A DNA stretch of 32,357 nucleotides from an uncultured Candidatus Nemicrothrix sp. (lineage in GTDB: Bacteria > Actinomycetota > Acidimicrobiia > Acidimicrobiales > Acidimicrobilacustridaceae): the NCBI GenBank assembly GCA_903867185.1, contig CAIPQK010000211.1, forward strand, positions 1 to 32,357. Reading direction: 5' to 3'. The position numbers and the translations under genes are program-made. Positions within the stretch are counted from its first letter, which is position 1, and every line of letters begins with the position of its first letter. Below, one piece after another: positions 1 to 32,357 of this stretch. Below the pieces are notes generated by a model that was not told the origin of the DNA, searched no databases, and saw only the letters and a program-made list of their open reading frames with translations.

Positions 1-1185
1 ACCGCGATGTGCGGCATTCTCTTCTGGGCAGTGGGCTTTGCATTTATGTTCGGTGAAGGAAATGGCTGGATCGGCCATCAGTTCTTCTTCCTGAACGATG
101 CCCCTGCAACCTATGGCACAACTGGTGTTGCGTTCCTTGCGTTCTGGGTCTTCCAGTTTGCTTTCGCCGACACCGCCTCGACCATCGTCTCGGGTGCCAT
201 GGTCGGACGCACCAGTTTCAAGGGTGACCTCATCTATTCGATTGGCGTGAGCGCAATCATCTACCCGATCGTCGGTCACTGGATCTGGGGACCGGGCGGC
301 TGGCTCGCCACGATGGACACGCCGTTCCGCGATTTCGCGGGCTCGACCGTTGTTCACACCGTTGGCGGTGTTCTTGCCCTCACTGGTGCGGTTGCTCTCG
401 GCCCGCGCATTGGACGCAAGTTCAAGCGAGACGGCGGCGGCTTCATGGTCGGTCACGACATGACCATCGCAGCCATCGGCGGCATCATCCTGTGGTTCGG
501 TTGGTACGGCTTCAACCCGGGTTCAACGCTCAGCGCAATGGATCTCGAAGGAATCGGTCGTGTTGCTGCAAACACCACACTCGCTGCATGCGCGGGCTGT
601 CTTGCGGGCTTGGCTTTCATGTACTTCCGCACAAAGAAGTGGGATCCAGGCATCACGATCAATGGCTTCCTCGCAGGCCTCGTTGCGATCACCGCACCGT
701 GCTACTGGGTAAGCCCGCTCGGAGCCATCATTATCGGCGGGGTCGCAGCAATCATCTGCGTGCTTGCGATCGATGTCATCGAATGGTTCCGAGTTGACGA
801 TCCGATCGGTGCAGTTGCAGTCCACGGCGTGTGCGGGATCTTCGGCACCATCGCTGTTGGTCTGTTCGCTACGGGTGACTTCGGAATCCCTGGCGCAACG
901 GGTGCCGATATCAGCACCGGCACTGTGACCGGCCTGTTCTATGGCGGTGGAACCGATCAGTTGGTGTCGCAGCTCATCGGATCCGCAGTGGTGACTGGAC
1001 TCGTTCTGATCGCCGGCATGGTCCTGATGTACGGGCTCAAGGCAGCCAAACAACTTCGTGTACCGGCCGACATCGAGCTCGAGGGTATTGATATCCACGA
1101 ACACGGTGGTTCCGCTTACCACCCTGAATTCGCTTTCACCGGCACGGGCGTTCCCGCCTCATCCGGCGCTAGCAAGGAGGCTTAA
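1..1185 (+). CDS. amt: Ammonium transporter Amt/AmtB, 5'-truncated by the window edge
   Basis: Membrane channel that conducts NH4+/NH3 into the cell. The reading frame is open from the first base, so the first internal ATG (7) is not the start; roughly 80-90 N-terminal residues with the first helices lie outside the window. The visible part has the Amt hallmarks: FAFADTAS in a helix, the first pore histidine in VVHTVGGV, the GPRIGRK loop, GFNPGS, and the second pore histidine in AVHGVCGIFG. Many hydrophobic helices follow one another, then a hydrophilic cytoplasmic tail of about 45 residues ending at 1185. A PII gene starts 3 nt downstream, with its ribosome site AAGGAGG (1174-1180) inside this gene's end, so the pair is co-transcribed and PII should plug this channel when nitrogen is plentiful. 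Family identity is clear. Confidence 0.95.
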   Translation, partial: TAMCGILFWAVGFAFMFGEGNGWIGHQFFFLNDAPATYGTTGVAFLAFWVFQFAFADTASTIVSGAMVGRTSFKGDLIYSIGVSAIIYPIVGHWIWGPGGWLATMDTPFRDFAGSTVVHTVGGVLALTGAVALGPRIGRKFKRDGGGFMVGHDMTIAAIGGIILWFGWYGFNPGSTLSAMDLEGIGRVAANTTLAACAGCLAGLAFMYFRTKKWDPGITINGFLAGLVAITAPCYWVSPLGAIIIGGVAAIICVLAIDVIEWFRVDDPIGAVAVHGVCGIFGTIAVGLFATGDFGIPGATGADISTGTVTGLFYGGGTDQLVSQLIGSAVVTGLVLIAGMVLMYGLKAAKQLRVPADIELEGIDIHEHGGSAYHPEFAFTGTGVPASSGASKEA

Positions 1186-1188
1186 GTC

Positions 1189-1530
1189 ATGCTGAAACTT
1201 GTTACCGCAATTCTCAAACCACACAAGTTTGATGATGTGAAGGAAGCTCTAAAGAAGGACGGCATCACCGGTCTGACCGTTACCGAAGTCAAGGGCTTCG
1301 GACGTCAGGGCGGCAAGACCGAAACCTTCCGAGGATCCGAATACACCGTCGAACTACTTCCCAAACTCAAGATTGAGTTGGTTGTCGAAGAGTCCTCAGT
1401 GGCCAAGGTGGTCGAGACGATCACCGCTGCTGGTCAGACCGGCAAGATCGGCGACGGCAAGATCTGGGTACTCGGAGTCGATGAACTGGTTCGGATTCGC
1501 ACCTCGGAAACGGGTGTTGAAGCCATTTAG
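1189..1530 (+). CDS. glnK: Nitrogen regulatory protein PII (GlnB/GlnK family), paralogue 1
   Basis: Small trimeric signal protein that reads ATP/ADP and 2-oxoglutarate and binds Amt and other nitrogen proteins. It has 113 residues, normal for the family. The sequence shows KPHK near the N-terminus, the T-loop [10 protein letters not shown] followed by RGSEY with the modifiable tyrosine at residue 52 (Tyr51 in enterobacterial numbering), and the C-terminal signature TGKIGDGKIWV with RIRTSE. In actinobacteria this tyrosine is typically adenylylated by GlnD. The start is fixed by AAGGAGG at 1174-1180, 8 nt before the ATG. It lies directly behind amt and before a strong hairpin, so it ends that operon. 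Pairing with amt favours a GlnK rather than a GlnB role, but sequence alone does not separate them. Confidence 0.95.
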   Translation: MLKLVTAILKPHKFDDVKEALKKDGITGLTVTEVKGFGRQGGKTETFRGSEYTVELLPKLKIELVVEESSVAKVVETITAAGQTGKIGDGKIWVLGVDELVRIRTSETGVEAI

Positions 1531-1553
1531 TTAGATTCTTTCTTGGTTGCTAT

Positions 1554-1579
1554 GGGGCCCTCGCTTCGGCGGGGGCCCC
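1554..1579 (+). terminator. Intrinsic terminator after the amt-PII operon
   Basis: An 11-bp GC-rich stem (1554-1564 with 1569-1579, one G-U pair) is closed by a UUCG tetraloop on a C-G pair, the very stable type. Only a weak T-rich stretch (CCGTTTTC) follows. It ends the amt-PII transcript and separates it from the two-component genes. Confidence 0.8.
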
Positions 1580-1605
1580 AAACCGTTTTCGGGTTCGAAC
1601 CTTTC

Positions 1606-1637
1606 CTTCACCCCGTTCTCACCTTTCTCTCACCAGC
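1606..1637 (+). promoter_or_regulatory. Three 11-bp-spaced TCACC direct repeats before the response regulator
   Basis: TCACC occurs at 1608-1612, 1619-1623 and 1630-1634, exactly 11 bp apart, and each copy is preceded by a pyrimidine. Regulators of the OmpR/PhoB class bind tandem half-sites on one face of the helix with about 11 bp spacing, and the PHO box of Streptomyces uses GTTCACC-like units. The third copy ends only 3 nt before the GTG start of the regulator gene, so autoregulation is the simple reading. The binding itself is inferred. Confidence 0.5.
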
Positions 1638-2342
1638 GTGGGCAAGACTCTGGAAATGGGAGCGCACCTAGTCATTGCTGAGGATGATCGAGCAGTTCGA
1701 GAGTCGGTGACTCGGGCCCTTGAACTCGAGGGCTACACCGTCGAAGCGGTCACCGATGGGGTGGCTGCGCTCGAAGCCGCAAGCAAAGAAGGCGTCGATC
1801 TTCTCCTGCTTGATCTCGGTATGCCGAACATGGACGGCCTGACAGTTTGTCGTCGACTTCGTTCGGCGGGTTCGCGCCTTCCGATTCTTGTGCTTACTGC
1901 TCGGACAGAAGTTTCTGATCGAGTTTCAGGTCTCGATGCTGGCGCCGATGATTATCTTCCGAAACCGTTCTCCCTCGATGAACTTTTGGCCCGGTTACGT
2001 TCGTTGTTACGTCGAAGCACATTCGATGACACCGACGAGATCCCGCAGGTGATCGTTGAAGATTTAGTCATCGACGAAGCAGCGCGTAGAGCATGGCGTG
2101 GCGAGCGTGAACTTGAACTGACCAAAACCGAGTTTGATCTCCTCGAGTTATTGGCTCGCAATACGGGAGTGGTTCTTTCCCATTCAAATATTTACGACCA
2201 AATCTGGGGTTACGACTTCGGCCCCGACTCGAAAGCACTCGCGGTCTACATCGGTTATTTGCGACGCAAAACTGAAGAAGGCGGAGAAGCACGGCTCATC
2301 CAGACGGTTCGCGGCGTCGGTTACACCCTGCGATTGTCATGA
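1638..2342 (+). CDS. mprA: OmpR-family response regulator, MprA-like
   Basis: Cytoplasmic DNA-binding response regulator. The receiver domain (about residues 10-125) has the acidic pocket E15-D16-D17, phosphoacceptor D59 in LLLLDLGMP, the switch threonine in VLTART, and the lysine in DDYLPKPF. A winged-helix trans_reg_C domain (about 135-234) ends in QTVRGVGYTLR. The stretch around RVSGLDAGADDYLPKPF closely matches mycobacterial MprA, a regulator of envelope stress. The GTG at 1638 is used as start; an in-frame ATG at 1656 is an alternative that still keeps the whole receiver. Neither has a good ribosome site. The stop overlaps the kinase start by 4 bases (ATGA), implying coupled translation. 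It sits between two Amt-PII modules, so a nitrogen link is possible but unproven. Confidence 0.9.
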   Translation: MGKTLEMGAHLVIAEDDRAVRESVTRALELEGYTVEAVTDGVAALEAASKEGVDLLLLDLGMPNMDGLTVCRRLRSAGSRLPILVLTARTEVSDRVSGLDAGADDYLPKPFSLDELLARLRSLLRRSTFDDTDEIPQVIVEDLVIDEAARRAWRGERELELTKTEFDLLELLARNTGVVLSHSNIYDQIWGYDFGPDSKALAVYIGYLRRKTEEGGEARLIQTVRGVGYTLRLS

Positions 2343-3685
2343 CGCTCCGAGGGAAAATCGCCATTGCTATGGCGGTGTTGACCGCGTTCACCGCGATCAT
2401 CGTTGCGGTTTCAACATATGCAGTGACCGATAATCGCGTTCGGTCAGAGGTCGATCAGTACCTCGACGGATACGCGCAGCGGTTCCAAGATCCCGATGGC
2501 CGCCAAGCGGTGATCACCTGCGCGAGCAATAACGTGCGTCGACTCCCGCAGGGAGTTCAACGTGATCCCGACGCTATTCAGGGGGTGGCGTTTCAATGTC
2601 TCGATAAATCAGGTTCGGTCATAAACACCATTGGCGTAGGAATACTTCCGGTAAGCGAGAAGGATCTTGCGATTGCCGCCAGCGGTCGAAATGAAACAAC
2701 CCGAACTGTCAGGGTGAATGGAAAAACCTGGCGGGTCGAGACGGTTGGTGTTGCTCAAGGTGGAGCAATCCAGATCGCACGCGATTACGGTGCGACCAAT
2801 CGCGTGCTTTCTGCATTGAGAGTCTGGCTTTCGCTGATCGTTGTTGCCGCTGCAGCAATTAGCGCACTGGTTGGTTGGCTGATTGCTCGTCGTGCGACGA
2901 AACCACTGGTGCAGCTCACGGACGCAGCCGAAGAGGTTGCGAACACCGGACGTCTCGACGTCGATGTTCCTGAAGCTGGAAAGGATGAGCCCGGTCGTTT
3001 GGCTCGAGCATTTGCCACGATGCTTGCGGCGTTGGGGCAGTCGCGTGATCAGCAGCAACAGCTCGTGCAAGATGCTGGGCATGAATTGCGCACGCCGCTC
3101 ACGAGTTTGCGCACCAACGTAGAAACGTTGCAGCGCTATCCGGATCTTCCGTCGGAAACCCGTGACGTCATACTTTCTGATCTCCAGTCTGAGACCCGTG
3201 AACTTGGTGCGCTTGTCGATGAACTCGTTCAACTGGCGACCGATACGTGGGATGACGAGCCCGAGGAATCGGTTTCTCTCGATCTCATTGCCGAACGGGT
3301 TGTCGAACGAACTCGGCGTCGCACCGGCCGAGTTGTCGAGCTCGACGTTCAATCATCGGTGATGATCGGTCGACCTCGAGAACTGACTCGAGCGATAGGC
3401 AATCTGGTCGACAACGCCGCGAAGTTCAGCGATGACCCGACGCCAGTCGAAGTCATGGTCCGACCTGGCACCGTTGTGGTTCGAGATCATGGGCCCGGGA
3501 TCAACGCCGAAGATCAACCGCATCTCTTTGACCGCTTCTATCGGGCTGCTGATGCCCGTTCAAAGCCAGGCTCTGGACTTGGGCTGGCCATCGTCGATCA
3601 GATTGTGCGTGCCCACGGTGGAACGGTGACGGCGGCGAACGCTCCGAATGGTGGCGCGGTGTTCACCATCCAGTTTCTGGCCTGA
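2339..3685 (+). CDS. mprB: Membrane sensor histidine kinase, MprB-like, partner of the preceding regulator
   Basis: Inner-membrane kinase of 448 residues. Order: helix TM1 (about 7-29), an extracytoplasmic sensor of about 125 residues, helix TM2 (about 160-183), HAMP linker, HisKA dimerisation helix with the phosphorylated histidine H248 in DAGHELRTPLTSLRTN, then an ATPase domain with N box NLVDNAAKFS, G1 DHGPGI and G2 GSGLGLAI. The H-box sequence is very close to mycobacterial MprB. The sensor holds just two cysteines, C61 and C87, which could form a disulfide. The start overlaps the regulator stop by 4 bases. The signal sensed cannot be read from sequence. No terminator is obvious in the 227 bp that follow. 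Confidence 0.9.
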   Translation: MTLRGKIAIAMAVLTAFTAIIVAVSTYAVTDNRVRSEVDQYLDGYAQRFQDPDGRQAVITCASNNVRRLPQGVQRDPDAIQGVAFQCLDKSGSVINTIGVGILPVSEKDLAIAASGRNETTRTVRVNGKTWRVETVGVAQGGAIQIARDYGATNRVLSALRVWLSLIVVAAAAISALVGWLIARRATKPLVQLTDAAEEVANTGRLDVDVPEAGKDEPGRLARAFATMLAALGQSRDQQQQLVQDAGHELRTPLTSLRTNVETLQRYPDLPSETRDVILSDLQSETRELGALVDELVQLATDTWDDEPEESVSLDLIAERVVERTRRRTGRVVELDVQSSVMIGRPRELTRAIGNLVDNAAKFSDDPTPVEVMVRPGTVVVRDHGPGINAEDQPHLFDRFYRAADARSKPGSGLGLAIVDQIVRAHGGTVTAANAPNGGAVFTIQFLA

Positions 3686-5711
<2,026 letters not shown>

Positions 5712-27474: not shown

Positions 27475-29355
27475 ATGATGCCCAGTTCCCTTCACATGAT
27501 GATGTCCGGAAATCGCGATGCGATTGCCAATGCATCAATCGGCCGCCGAACCGTTGTTCGGGTGCTCTCCTATGCCCGCCCCTATCGGTGGGCAATCTCT
27601 GCCTTCGTCTTTGTCATTGTTATTCAGGCCTTGCTTGGCCTCATACCGGCGTTGCTCTTCCGACAGATCATCGACTCGGCGATTCCTCAGGGAAATCGCG
27701 GACTCCTCCATGTTCTCGCCGCCATCGTGATCGCCGCAGCAGTGTTTTCTTCGGCGATGTCATTTTTTGAGCGCCTCTATTCATCCCGCATTGGTGAAGG
27801 TTTGATTTACGACCTTCGAGTGAAGTTGTTCGATCACGTTTCCGCAATGCCGATTGGTTTCTTCACGCGCACTCAAACCGGCGCACTCATGAGTCGCCTC
27901 AATAACGATGTCATCGGAGCTCAGCGCGCGGTAACGACAACACTCGGATCAGTCGTATCAAACGTCATCGTGCTCATCACCACGCTGGTCGCGATGTTCT
28001 ACCTGGAATGGCGCCTCACGTTTATTGGAATCTTGGTTCTGCCAATTTTCATCATTCCGGCCAAGCGTGTTGGGCGTCGACTGTCGGCGATCACTCGTCG
28101 GGGGTTCGACCTCAATGCAGCGATGAACACTCAGATGACAGAACGGTTCAATGTCTCAGGTGCACTCTTAGTGAAGTTGTTTGGTAACCGAAAGCGCGAG
28201 ACCAAACAGTTTTCTGACCGAGCCGCCGAAGTGCGCGACATCGGTATTCAGAGCGCGATGTACAGCCGAACATTCCTCATTGCACTCGCTCTCGTTGGAG
28301 CAATCGGAACTGCGCTGGTCTATTGGATCGGCGGGCAACTCGTTATTTCCGATGCCATCACTCTCGGCACGCTGGTTGCGTTAGCTGCATTGGTGACGCG
28401 TATCTACGAACCGCTCACCGCGCTTTCAAGTGCTCGCGTTGACATCATGACTGCTCTTGTTTCGTTCGACCGAGTTTTTGAAGTACTCGATCTTCGTAAT
28501 TCGCTCGACGACAAGGACGATGCAGTCGATCTTCCGCCGTCAAAGGGTGCGATCGAGTTCGATCACGTCACCTTCCGCTATCCGTCAGGTGCTGAAGAGT
28601 CGCTTGCATCGCTCGAGATCGGTCTGAGCGGTTCGGTCGACGATGGCCCAGGAGCCGAAGTTCTTCATGACGTGTCTGCGTCGATTCTTCCGGGGCAGCT
28701 CATTGCGCTCGTAGGCCCTTCGGGTGCGGGAAAGACCACGATGAGCTCGCTGGTGCCGCGTTTGTACGACGTTTCCGAGGGTTCGGTGCGTATCGACGGG
28801 CACGACGTTCGCGATCTCACGCTCGATTCATTGCGCAGCGCTGTTGGTGTTGTGTCACAGGATCCCCATCTCTTTCACGACACGGTGGCGGAAAATCTTC
28901 GTTATGCACGGCCCGACGCAACCGATGCCGAAATAGTTGCTGCCTGTCAGGCCGCCCAAATTCACGATGTCATCGTTGGCTTTCCCGACGGGTACAACAC
29001 CGTTGTCGGTGAACGTGGCCACCGTCTCTCTGGTGGAGAGAAACAACGTTTGGCGATCGCCCGAGTGTTGGTGAAGGCACCGGCCATCATCGTTCTCGAT
29101 GAGGCCACGAGCCACCTCGATTCAGAAAACGAATCGCTTGTGCAACAAGCTCTTGCATCAGCACTTAAGGGAAGAACCTCGTTGGTCGTCGCCCATCGAT
29201 TGTCAACGATTACCGGTGCCGATCAAATTCTCGTTCTCGAGTCCGGACGCATCGTCGAGCGTGGGCGTCATGAGGAACTGTTGGCCGCAGAAGGCTTGTA
29301 TGCCGACCTCTATCGCACGCTGGTTCGTCAAGACCTCGAAGGCATCGAGATCTAA
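27475..29355 (+). CDS. ABC transporter half-transporter (fused permease and ATPase), exporter type
   Basis: A protein of 626 residues that should work as a homodimer or heterodimer to export lipids, drugs or peptides. Residues about 30-325 form the six-helix exporter domain with SRLNNDVIGAQRAVTTTLGSVVSN, typical of ABC type-I exporters. The ATPase domain starts near 360: Walker A GPSGAGKT (414-421), Q-loop GVVSQDPHLFHDT, signature LSGGE (518-522), Walker B with D542-E543 in IIVLDEATSHLDSE, and switch histidine in VVAHRLST. A stretch of about 20 residues before Walker A (SLASLEIGLSGSVDDGPGAE) is an insertion compared with the common form. The substrate is not deducible. No ribosome site is evident; TAACCT lies 9 nt upstream. 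Convergent with the LLM oxidoreductase. Confidence 0.93.
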   Translation: MMPSSLHMMMSGNRDAIANASIGRRTVVRVLSYARPYRWAISAFVFVIVIQALLGLIPALLFRQIIDSAIPQGNRGLLHVLAAIVIAAAVFSSAMSFFERLYSSRIGEGLIYDLRVKLFDHVSAMPIGFFTRTQTGALMSRLNNDVIGAQRAVTTTLGSVVSNVIVLITTLVAMFYLEWRLTFIGILVLPIFIIPAKRVGRRLSAITRRGFDLNAAMNTQMTERFNVSGALLVKLFGNRKRETKQFSDRAAEVRDIGIQSAMYSRTFLIALALVGAIGTALVYWIGGQLVISDAITLGTLVALAALVTRIYEPLTALSSARVDIMTALVSFDRVFEVLDLRNSLDDKDDAVDLPPSKGAIEFDHVTFRYPSGAEESLASLEIGLSGSVDDGPGAEVLHDVSASILPGQLIALVGPSGAGKTTMSSLVPRLYDVSEGSVRIDGHDVRDLTLDSLRSAVGVVSQDPHLFHDTVAENLRYARPDATDAEIVAACQAAQIHDVIVGFPDGYNTVVGERGHRLSGGEKQRLAIARVLVKAPAIIVLDEATSHLDSENESLVQQALASALKGRTSLVVAHRLSTITGADQILVLESGRIVERGRHEELLAAEGLYADLYRTLVRQDLEGIEI

Positions 29356-30972: not shown

Positions 30973-31878
30973 ATGAGAGTTGCGTTTGTGACCACAAGTG
31001 ATCTCGACGCGATTCACGACGACGTCGACCTTCCACTGCAAATCATCGCCTTTGCCAATGCCGGAATCGATCTCGTTCAAGCGGCATGGGAAGACGAAAC
31101 GATTGCTTGGGATTCGTTTGATCTGATCGTGGTTCGAAGTCCATGGAATTACGTCGAGAAGCTCGACGCGTTTCGAAAATGGCTGGGTGATCGGCGCGGG
31201 CTTAGGACGTTTCACAACCCCGTCGAACTCATCGACTGGAATATCGACAAGCGCTACCTCGCTGATCTTGCGCAACGAGGAGTGCCAGTCGTTCCGACAG
31301 CCTTTGTGTATTCGATCGAAGAGTTTCGATCAGCAGCGGCATCCCTTGGCAGCGCAGAAATTGTGGTGAAGCCATCGGTGTCTGCCGGGAGCCGGTTGAC
31401 CGGTCGCTTTCTGAAGGCTGATCGGGCCGCTGAACTGCTCGCCAGCGAAATCCTTGCCAACGACCTAACGGTGATGCTTCAACCGTTTGCAGCGCGGATC
31501 GATTCCGAAGGCGAAATTGGAACGGTGCTCTTCGACGGGATGATTTCCCACTCGTTCAACAAAGCAGCGTTGCTCGCTGAAGGCGGTCAGCTCGTGGGCG
31601 GTGAGTATCAGGAGCAGATCACGTCAGTGCGAACTCCCGACGACGTACGAGTCGTTGTTGATGCAGCGGCGAACGCCGCAACGGAGATTGCTCGCGAGCG
31701 CAGTTGGATCTCAACGCACGAGCAACTTCTCTATGGCCGATACGACGTGGTCCGTCTCGATGACGGATCACCAGCGCTCCTCGAAGCGGAACTTTTTGAG
31801 CCCTGTTTTTTCTTACCGACTGACGTAGATGCTGCCGACCGAGTCGTTGGCGCGGTTCTTCGTCGACTCAGCGCCTAA
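30973..31878 (+). CDS. ATP-grasp domain protein, related to DcsG/RimK-type ligases
   Basis: A protein of 301 residues. The N-terminal part (MRVAFVTTSD, VRSPWNYVEKLDAFRKWL) and RTFHNPVELIDWNIDKRYLADLAQRGVPVVPT resemble the ATP-grasp ligases around O-ureido-serine cyclo-ligase (DcsG) and glutathione-synthetase-like enzymes. The ATP-binding region includes EIVVKPSVSAGSRLT; the metal-binding end is LLEAELFEPCFFLP. It would join a carboxylate to an amine through an acyl-phosphate; the partners are unknown and no biosynthetic cluster is visible. The ATG at 30973 has TAGCGT 6 nt upstream. It ends 1 nt from the heliorhodopsin stop, tail to tail. Confidence 0.8.
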   Translation: MRVAFVTTSDLDAIHDDVDLPLQIIAFANAGIDLVQAAWEDETIAWDSFDLIVVRSPWNYVEKLDAFRKWLGDRRGLRTFHNPVELIDWNIDKRYLADLAQRGVPVVPTAFVYSIEEFRSAAASLGSAEIVVKPSVSAGSRLTGRFLKADRAAELLASEILANDLTVMLQPFAARIDSEGEIGTVLFDGMISHSFNKAALLAEGGQLVGGEYQEQITSVRTPDDVRVVVDAAANAATEIARERSWISTHEQLLYGRYDVVRLDDGSPALLEAELFEPCFFLPTDVDAADRVVGAVLRRLSA

Positions 31879-31879
31879 T

Positions 31880-32357
31880 TCAGGAAGGGCTGGCGAGCGT
31901 GCCGCCAAAGATCTGCCAAGCAAGAGCGCTCTTCGCAACAAGGCTGAGTACGAGATACACCTTTTCACCGTAGAGGTAGTCGGTGAACTTTCCCTTACCT
32001 CGGTATTGCAGCCATTGATTGAGAGCGAAGCAATTGAACAAGAGGAACAGCGAAATCACGATTCCGTAAACGAACGGTGGTACTCCATCGGCATTTACGG
32101 GAATGCCGTTGATCATCGTGTTGTCGGTTGCTGAAGTGACAAGCCCGATGACGATTGCGATCCACGGGACGATGCCGGCAATGCAGCCGAAGATGAATGG
32201 CCACCAGTTCACAGACTCCCGATTTTGGTTGACCTGTTCCATCACAAGCCCGAACAAAATCATCGCGGCGTTGACGCCGAAGATGGCGATGATGGCGTAG
32301 AGGTTATTGATGCCATTCAAGAGCGCGATCAGCACGATCATGATTGACGCGCTCACC
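31880..32357 (-). CDS. Heliorhodopsin, 3' part (gene continues beyond window edge)
   Basis: Light-sensing seven-helix retinal protein with inverted membrane topology (N-terminus inside). The visible 158 residues cover about helix 3 to helix 7. Marks of the family: SASIMIVLIALLNGI, AIFGVNAAMILFGLVME, WWPFIFGCIAGIVPWIAI, FVYGIVISLFLLFNCFALN, the segment DYLYGEKVYLVLSLVAKSALAWQIFGGTL. The retinal lysine is in VAKSALAWQ (codon 31931-31933). The frame stays open to the last base, so the GTG near 32354 is internal; the first two helices and the Schiff-base counterion glutamate, which lies just before SASIMI in known members, are outside. Helio- rather than type-1 rhodopsin is clear from the helix 7 sequence. 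No carotenoid or retinal synthesis gene is in the window. Confidence 0.95.
   Translation of the reverse strand, partial: VSASIMIVLIALLNGINNLYAIIAIFGVNAAMILFGLVMEQVNQNRESVNWWPFIFGCIAGIVPWIAIVIGLVTSATDNTMINGIPVNADGVPPFVYGIVISLFLLFNCFALNQWLQYRGKGKFTDYLYGEKVYLVLSLVAKSALAWQIFGGTLASPS

Follow-up and report, generated by a model that had tools for sequence, protein, structure and literature searches.

The heliorhodopsin AbHeR of Actinobacteria bacterium IMCC26103 is described as binding and activating glutamine synthetase (GS), with which it shares an operon (PMC9529153, in excerpt), and OcHeR likewise lies in one operon with the genes of its ABC transporter (PMC11109279, in excerpt). The latter source gives the topology of the family as inverted, with the N-terminus in the cytoplasm, and we assume the same for the protein described here. 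In helix G, heliorhodopsins carry the motif SxxxK in place of the DxxxK of type-1 rhodopsins (PMC11561045). The supply of retinal has also been discussed for bacteria with rhodopsins: the text available from PMC7771536 describes 'Ca. Actinomarinales' as retaining heliorhodopsin without retinal synthesis genes, exogenous retinal has been inferred from a missing blh in Luna-1 actinobacteria, many of which have heliorhodopsin (PMC12422013, in excerpt), and a genus of Acidobacteriota is reported to carry proteorhodopsin without a retinal pathway of its own (PMC11561045, in excerpt). A full-text literature search found no paper joining heliorhodopsin with Ilumatobacter.

The stretch of DNA analysed here (hereafter the window; 32,357 nucleotides) is the complete contig C211 of G000, a 2.57-Mb draft genome of 232 contigs (100% complete, 1.07% contaminated) from an uncultured actinobacterium that is probably of freshwater. 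On the minus strand at 31880..32356, a frame of 158 codons plus stop runs open to the contig edge, and since the window is the whole contig, the gene is truly cut, as an earlier note on this DNA had stated. That note had named the gene a heliorhodopsin from two peptides, both of which are present in the frame, and the name is borne out by profile searches: the fragment scores 206.1 bits against PF18761 (cut-off 26.7 bits; E 6.8e-61; profile positions 100-242 of 242) and 205.1 bits against the NCBIfam equivalog NF038020, 'heliorhodopsin HeR' (cut-off 100), a family match that is far beyond chance. PF01036, the type-1 rhodopsin family, has no match at E <= 0.001 in the window protein and none in the whole of genome G000. 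The codon of the Schiff-base lysine lies at 31931..31933 on the minus strand (residue 142 of the fragment, position 241 of 48C12 in a printed alignment), the role of this helix-G lysine being described in PMC9529153. Four residues before it, at 31943..31945, lies the serine codon of the SxxxK motif, which reads SLVAK here, and both S and K are invariant in our alignment of 22 rows (A1). Judged by its sequence, the fragment is real and correctly named, a member of the family that is ordinary as a protein, and because the gene is an ordinary heliorhodopsin, the find in itself adds little.

Comparison with relatives puts the missing 5' part at about 110 codons. At the cut edge (32347..32357, minus strand) the window protein starts VSAS where relatives read RWIEYSVSAS or RWIEYSASAS, so the counterion Glu, three residues ahead of the first in the window, would have its codon just outside the window if the gene follows its relatives. 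Because a search of the assembly did not find the first ~110 residues, the Glu and helices A-B of the window gene rest on these relatives, and the full-length gene of the closest of them, G015, has both; the earlier note had named the lack of either as a sign against the family. A profile search of the G000 contigs finds heliorhodopsin in one place, with no second piece. DNA of G015 that spans the starts of heliorhodopsin and of the 5'-3' exonuclease gene beside it matches contig C201 of G000 up to the exonuclease start, with no match in G000 for the heliorhodopsin start. The exonuclease on C201 is 91.8% identical, and the contig runs on for 76 bases past the match, the first of which resemble the spacers of other members of the genus. 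Given the synteny in relatives, C201 and C211 should flank one gap, and since there is no second piece and the C201 match stops at the exonuclease start, the missing 5' part should lie in that gap. We infer that the two contigs adjoin without insertion, in which case the gap would measure roughly 340 bases; an insert such as four relatives have is possible. As far as relatives tell, the gene would be intact.

The heliorhodopsin of G015 is 95.5% identical to the window fragment over 157 residues, is full length at 268 aa and has Glu108 and Lys252, the latter corresponding to the lysine of the window. Its AlphaFold model (mean pLDDT 87) has seven long helices, on which the window fragment spans the second half of helix C to helix G, in keeping with the helices 3-7 of the earlier note. 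A Foldseek search with the model returned heliorhodopsins in its ten best rows, including 48C12 entries with TM 0.85-0.86 (by query length), and bacteriorhodopsin in the eleventh, after which no row reaches E <= 0.001, and all six sequence matches of the protein are heliorhodopsins; structure prediction, which had been proposed as a check on the family, thus agrees with it. Compared with 48C12 (PDB 6su3, 6su4, 6uh3), the G015 protein has the same fold, shows 46-47% identity in structural alignment and shares the positions of Glu, Lys, two His and SxxxK. The residues that PMC9529153 names as counterion, pocket and Schiff base of a heliorhodopsin map by offset to E108, Y109, S112, F217, F220, Q224, S248 and K252 of G015, and these eight are invariant or nearly so across the 22 rows of the alignment. 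Six of them are present in the window fragment, while E108 and Y109 fall outside it, and the helix-C Glu is found in all 21 rows that cover the position. The two proteins differ in the extracellular E-F stretch, which is nine residues shorter in 48C12 than in G015, and that of the window is long too. This stretch, in which the G015 model has short strands drawn, spans 34 in the window and in 14 of 15 full-length proteins of the genus, with 28 in that of G004; the remaining measurable rows give 20-28, apart from seven named rows of span 34 that repeat genus members, and 11 named rows are unmeasurable by the pattern used.

PF18761 was matched in 34 of 61 genomes, namely the window's own, 20 of 20 of the same genus and 13 of 40 of the family and order. 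Among the copies of the 21 genus genomes, 15 are full length, five are truncated at contig ends (G000, G003, G013, G018, G020), and that of G011 lacks its first 44 codons inside a contig, through a deletion or misassembly. In a tree of 98 rows (105 before seven repeats of genus members were removed), the window protein groups with those of G015 and G006 inside a single genus clade (support 99/89), whose sister group consists of G027 and G034, from the same family. The simple reading would be vertical descent of heliorhodopsin within the genus.

The usual enzymes of retinal synthesis are a different matter. In profile searches of the 21 draft genomes of the genus, ten of them with completeness of 90% or more and contamination of 5% or less, neither PF15461 (Brp/Blh) nor PF00494 (phytoene/squalene synthase) was matched in any. 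Elsewhere both profiles have matches, PF15461 in 4 of 14 other genomes, including G034 of the same family, and PF00494 in 12 of 27 (five of these among 16 genomes from other genera of the family); in 14 control genomes PF00494 was matched in seven, and PF01036 and PF15461, whose positives lie elsewhere, in none. The genus would thus seem to be without the usual retinal-making genes. With both phytoene synthase and Brp/Blh unmatched in the genus, its retinal is most likely scavenged from the environment; a route to retinal of another kind is possible. The missing phytoene synthase is not peculiar to the genus, since 7 of 18 other heliorhodopsin-bearing genomes (13 taken from the family and order profile search, five reached via heliorhodopsin loci) also lack a PF00494 match (G024, G031, G035, G038, G048, G055, G058).

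Type-1 rhodopsin (PF01036) was detected in 8 of the 21 genus genomes and in none of the other 13, among them G000. A carotenoid oxygenase (PF03055) is found in five (G008, G010, G011, G012, G013), G000 being negative, and never together with type-1 rhodopsin; each of the five has it in one to three places and is without a PF00494 match. As a possible replacement for Brp/Blh, this enzyme has no match in G000 or most of the genus, and its substrate is unreadable from sequence; the five genomes that have it might perhaps cut retinal from scavenged carotenoids. Eight genomes, including that of the window, have heliorhodopsin but none of PF15461, PF00494, PF01036 and PF03055, and two of these, G000 and G003, reach 90% completeness with contamination of no more than 5%. 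The genus thereby differs from both actinobacterial precedents as they are presented in the available text: most 'Ca. Actinomarinales' also encode a type-1 pump, and their heliorhodopsin lies in the context of nuo operons, which is not the context here (PMC7771536), whereas in Luna-1 most genomes have retained crtB and crtY (PMC12422013).

A genus in which PF00494 and PF15461 are unmatched in 21 genomes, and in which one copy lacks its first 44 codons, might be expected to be losing its heliorhodopsin gene. Such decay is extremely improbable in our view, as the pocket residues are retained, 15 copies are full length, and the window fragment gives dN/dS values of 0.04-0.12 when compared with 15 genus members. 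Across 116 of the 120 pairs, the four others having been dropped for lack of a usable dS or for dS >= 2, the median is 0.08 and the maximum 0.23. By this measure of codon change, the genus is keeping its heliorhodopsin under purifying selection.

Gene order around heliorhodopsin is largely shared within the genus. It runs from methylmalonyl-CoA mutase-like, CoA transferase-like and carboxyl transferase-like (by eye) genes through a divergent 5'-3' exonuclease to heliorhodopsin, and continues with a convergent ATP-grasp-like gene, a luciferase-like gene, an ABC transporter and dnaX/ybaB/recR-like genes (the last by eye). In the window the ATP-grasp-like gene occupies 30973..31878 on the plus strand; it has no Pfam match and resembles DcsG, a D-cycloserine synthetase, whose model gives it 237 bits where the cut-off is 360. 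Its stop codon and that of heliorhodopsin converge 1 bp apart (31876-31882), and in 16 of 21 genomes the distance between the two gene ends is -14 to +3 bp, so the two transcripts probably overlap. The distance is 27 bp in G013 and 834 bp in G008 and G012; the gene is cut off in G003 and was not found in the 3.8 kb searched of G014.

On the upstream side, which is cut off in G000, G013 and G018, the exonuclease (PF02739/PF01367) starts divergently 78-126 bp from heliorhodopsin in 12 of 21 genomes, including the closest relatives, G015 and G006. This head-to-head arrangement could point to a heliorhodopsin that acts with the exonuclease in DNA repair. A precedent of a kind exists in TfHeR, which reportedly helps photolyase (PMC9769723). 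We regard the idea as very unlikely, however, because such an exonuclease was found in seven of the 80 loci from named genomes, all seven of the genus, and because two genes separate the pair in G003, G004 and G017 and G014 has another neighbour. The spacer itself is poorly conserved: apart from the two gene starts, it retains little that could point to a common promoter or motif.

The two separating genes in G003, G004 and G017 encode a PqqD/Ig-domain protein and a 2OG-Fe(II) oxygenase, and genes of the same kinds lie upstream on the heliorhodopsin strand in G001 as well; the naming comes from Pfam for the G004 pair (L023:7470-9075) and from clustering or by eye for the others (L035 in G003, L015 in G017, L019 in G001). 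The PqqD-domain protein also has a twin-arginine-like stretch (by eye) next to its Ig domain, and the pair could be a small peptide-modification cassette. In G014, the sole genus member with other neighbours (L011:3-2271 on contig C72), the gene lies near one for an OmpR-type response regulator (by eye) and, on its own strand, one for a small protein that looks secreted; this genome is 6% contaminated, but its heliorhodopsin still groups with the genus. Given same-strand upstream genes, a heliorhodopsin operon is possible in G001, G003, G004, G017 and G014. In the closest relatives of the window heliorhodopsin is alone on its strand, and guesses at function based on operons are therefore inapplicable to them.

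The same gene order bears on the transporter. An MsbA-type ABC transporter lies at 27475..29355 on the plus strand and is syntenic in the genus, and in both this locus and that of OcHeR (PMC11109279, in excerpt) an ABC transporter is thus near a member of the family. By analogy with OcHeR and OmrDE, the window heliorhodopsin might regulate the transporter, which is about 2.5 kb downstream of it. The arrangement makes this highly improbable: OcHeR has its transporter upstream in the same operon, whereas here it is downstream on the opposite strand with two genes between.

A link to nitrogen had been put forward in the earlier note, which pointed to ammonium-transport and PII modules at the other end of the window and to the GS partner of AbHeR. 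The modules are indeed there, at 1..5711 on the plus strand and 26 kb off, as Amt (cut)-PII, a response regulator with histidine kinase (by eye) and PII-Amt. Of five genus genomes read downstream, four (G002, G004, G013, G019) also have Amt and PII at a distance of about 25 kb, the contig of the fifth, G005, ending before that point; around the gene of G034, outside the genus, the DNA read showed neither. Thiolase, RF3 and H+-PPase genes in between (the latter two by eye) keep their places equally, so the Amt/PII linkage is plain synteny, and the note's own caution that 26 kb apart is not evidence of linkage was apt. As a side observation, the four relatives show one Amt and one PII place each (G002 being contig-cut) against two pairs in the window, so that the pair may be duplicated in the window or lost in the relatives.

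As to GS itself, AbHeR and the window gene belong to the same family and, by mapping, have the same named pocket residues, and a light-dependent regulator of GS or of ammonium uptake on the AbHeR pattern would draw further on the ICL3 loop, where by offset two of the three AbHeR lysine positions are positive (R229, K233) and the third is a Gly beside a Lys. AbHeR has Lys at all three named positions, while the window gene reads RGKGK. As a signature of GS binding we rejected these charges, since positive charges occur there in many clades. AbHeR, moreover, has GS in its operon, whereas three GS-family genes were found in G000, two on contig C154 and one on C80, and the neighbours of heliorhodopsin are the ATP-grasp-like gene and, in the closest relatives, the exonuclease. 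GS stands beside heliorhodopsin in 1 of 80 loci of named genomes, L101 of Nanopelagicaceae, in a search with GS1 and GS3 as queries over flanks of less than 1 kb to 10 kb that would miss remoter GS genes. The L101 protein belongs to a separate clade of 24 rows (100/97) and the window protein to its own genus clade, AbHeR being absent from the tree. With GS genes elsewhere, no operon in the closest relatives, the sole GS-linked heliorhodopsin found in another clade and an Amt/PII linkage that is general synteny, we consider a role in GS or ammonium regulation very unlikely. Of the earlier note, the heliorhodopsin identity stands and the light-nitrogen link is not supported. The GS, repair and ABC links were all set aside as best explanation, with gene order, clade and locus counts against them.

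In our judgement it is probable that the window ends in the 3' part of a heliorhodopsin gene cut by nothing but an assembly gap, and that the gene encodes a retinal photoreceptor that uses scavenged retinal and has its partner elsewhere. The protein would be a seven-helix membrane photoreceptor that holds retinal as a protonated Schiff base on the lysine of helix G, the glutamate of helix C serving as counterion. Light would isomerise the retinal, most likely taken from the environment, and start a slow photocycle that pumps no ions, in the course of which the cytoplasmic loops would change and act on a partner; as the closest relatives have no same-strand neighbour, that partner is probably encoded elsewhere.

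What makes the locus useful is its setting, with heliorhodopsin in 21 of 21 genomes, phytoene synthase and Brp/Blh in 0 of 21 and type-1 rhodopsin in 8 of 21. The genus parts heliorhodopsin from proton pumping and from a retinal supply of its own, and in most of its readable genomes also from the operon partners used to guess function, which makes it a handy test case for heliorhodopsin function. A bolder proposal, to which we give rather little weight, is that a heliorhodopsin without cell-made retinal and, in 13 of 21 genomes, without a detected pump would be a sensor with a public-good chromophore. If so, it would report both light and the presence of neighbours that release retinal; within the same proposal, it might instead sense another apocarotenoid or work as an apoprotein.

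In 5 of 21 genus genomes a contig ends within heliorhodopsin, against about 1.6 expected, an excess with P of about 0.015 as calculated from contig numbers and rounded sizes for a pattern noticed post hoc. In G020, no overlap of contig ends longer than 10 bases was found. Local strain diversity or recombination might be breaking assemblies at this gene.
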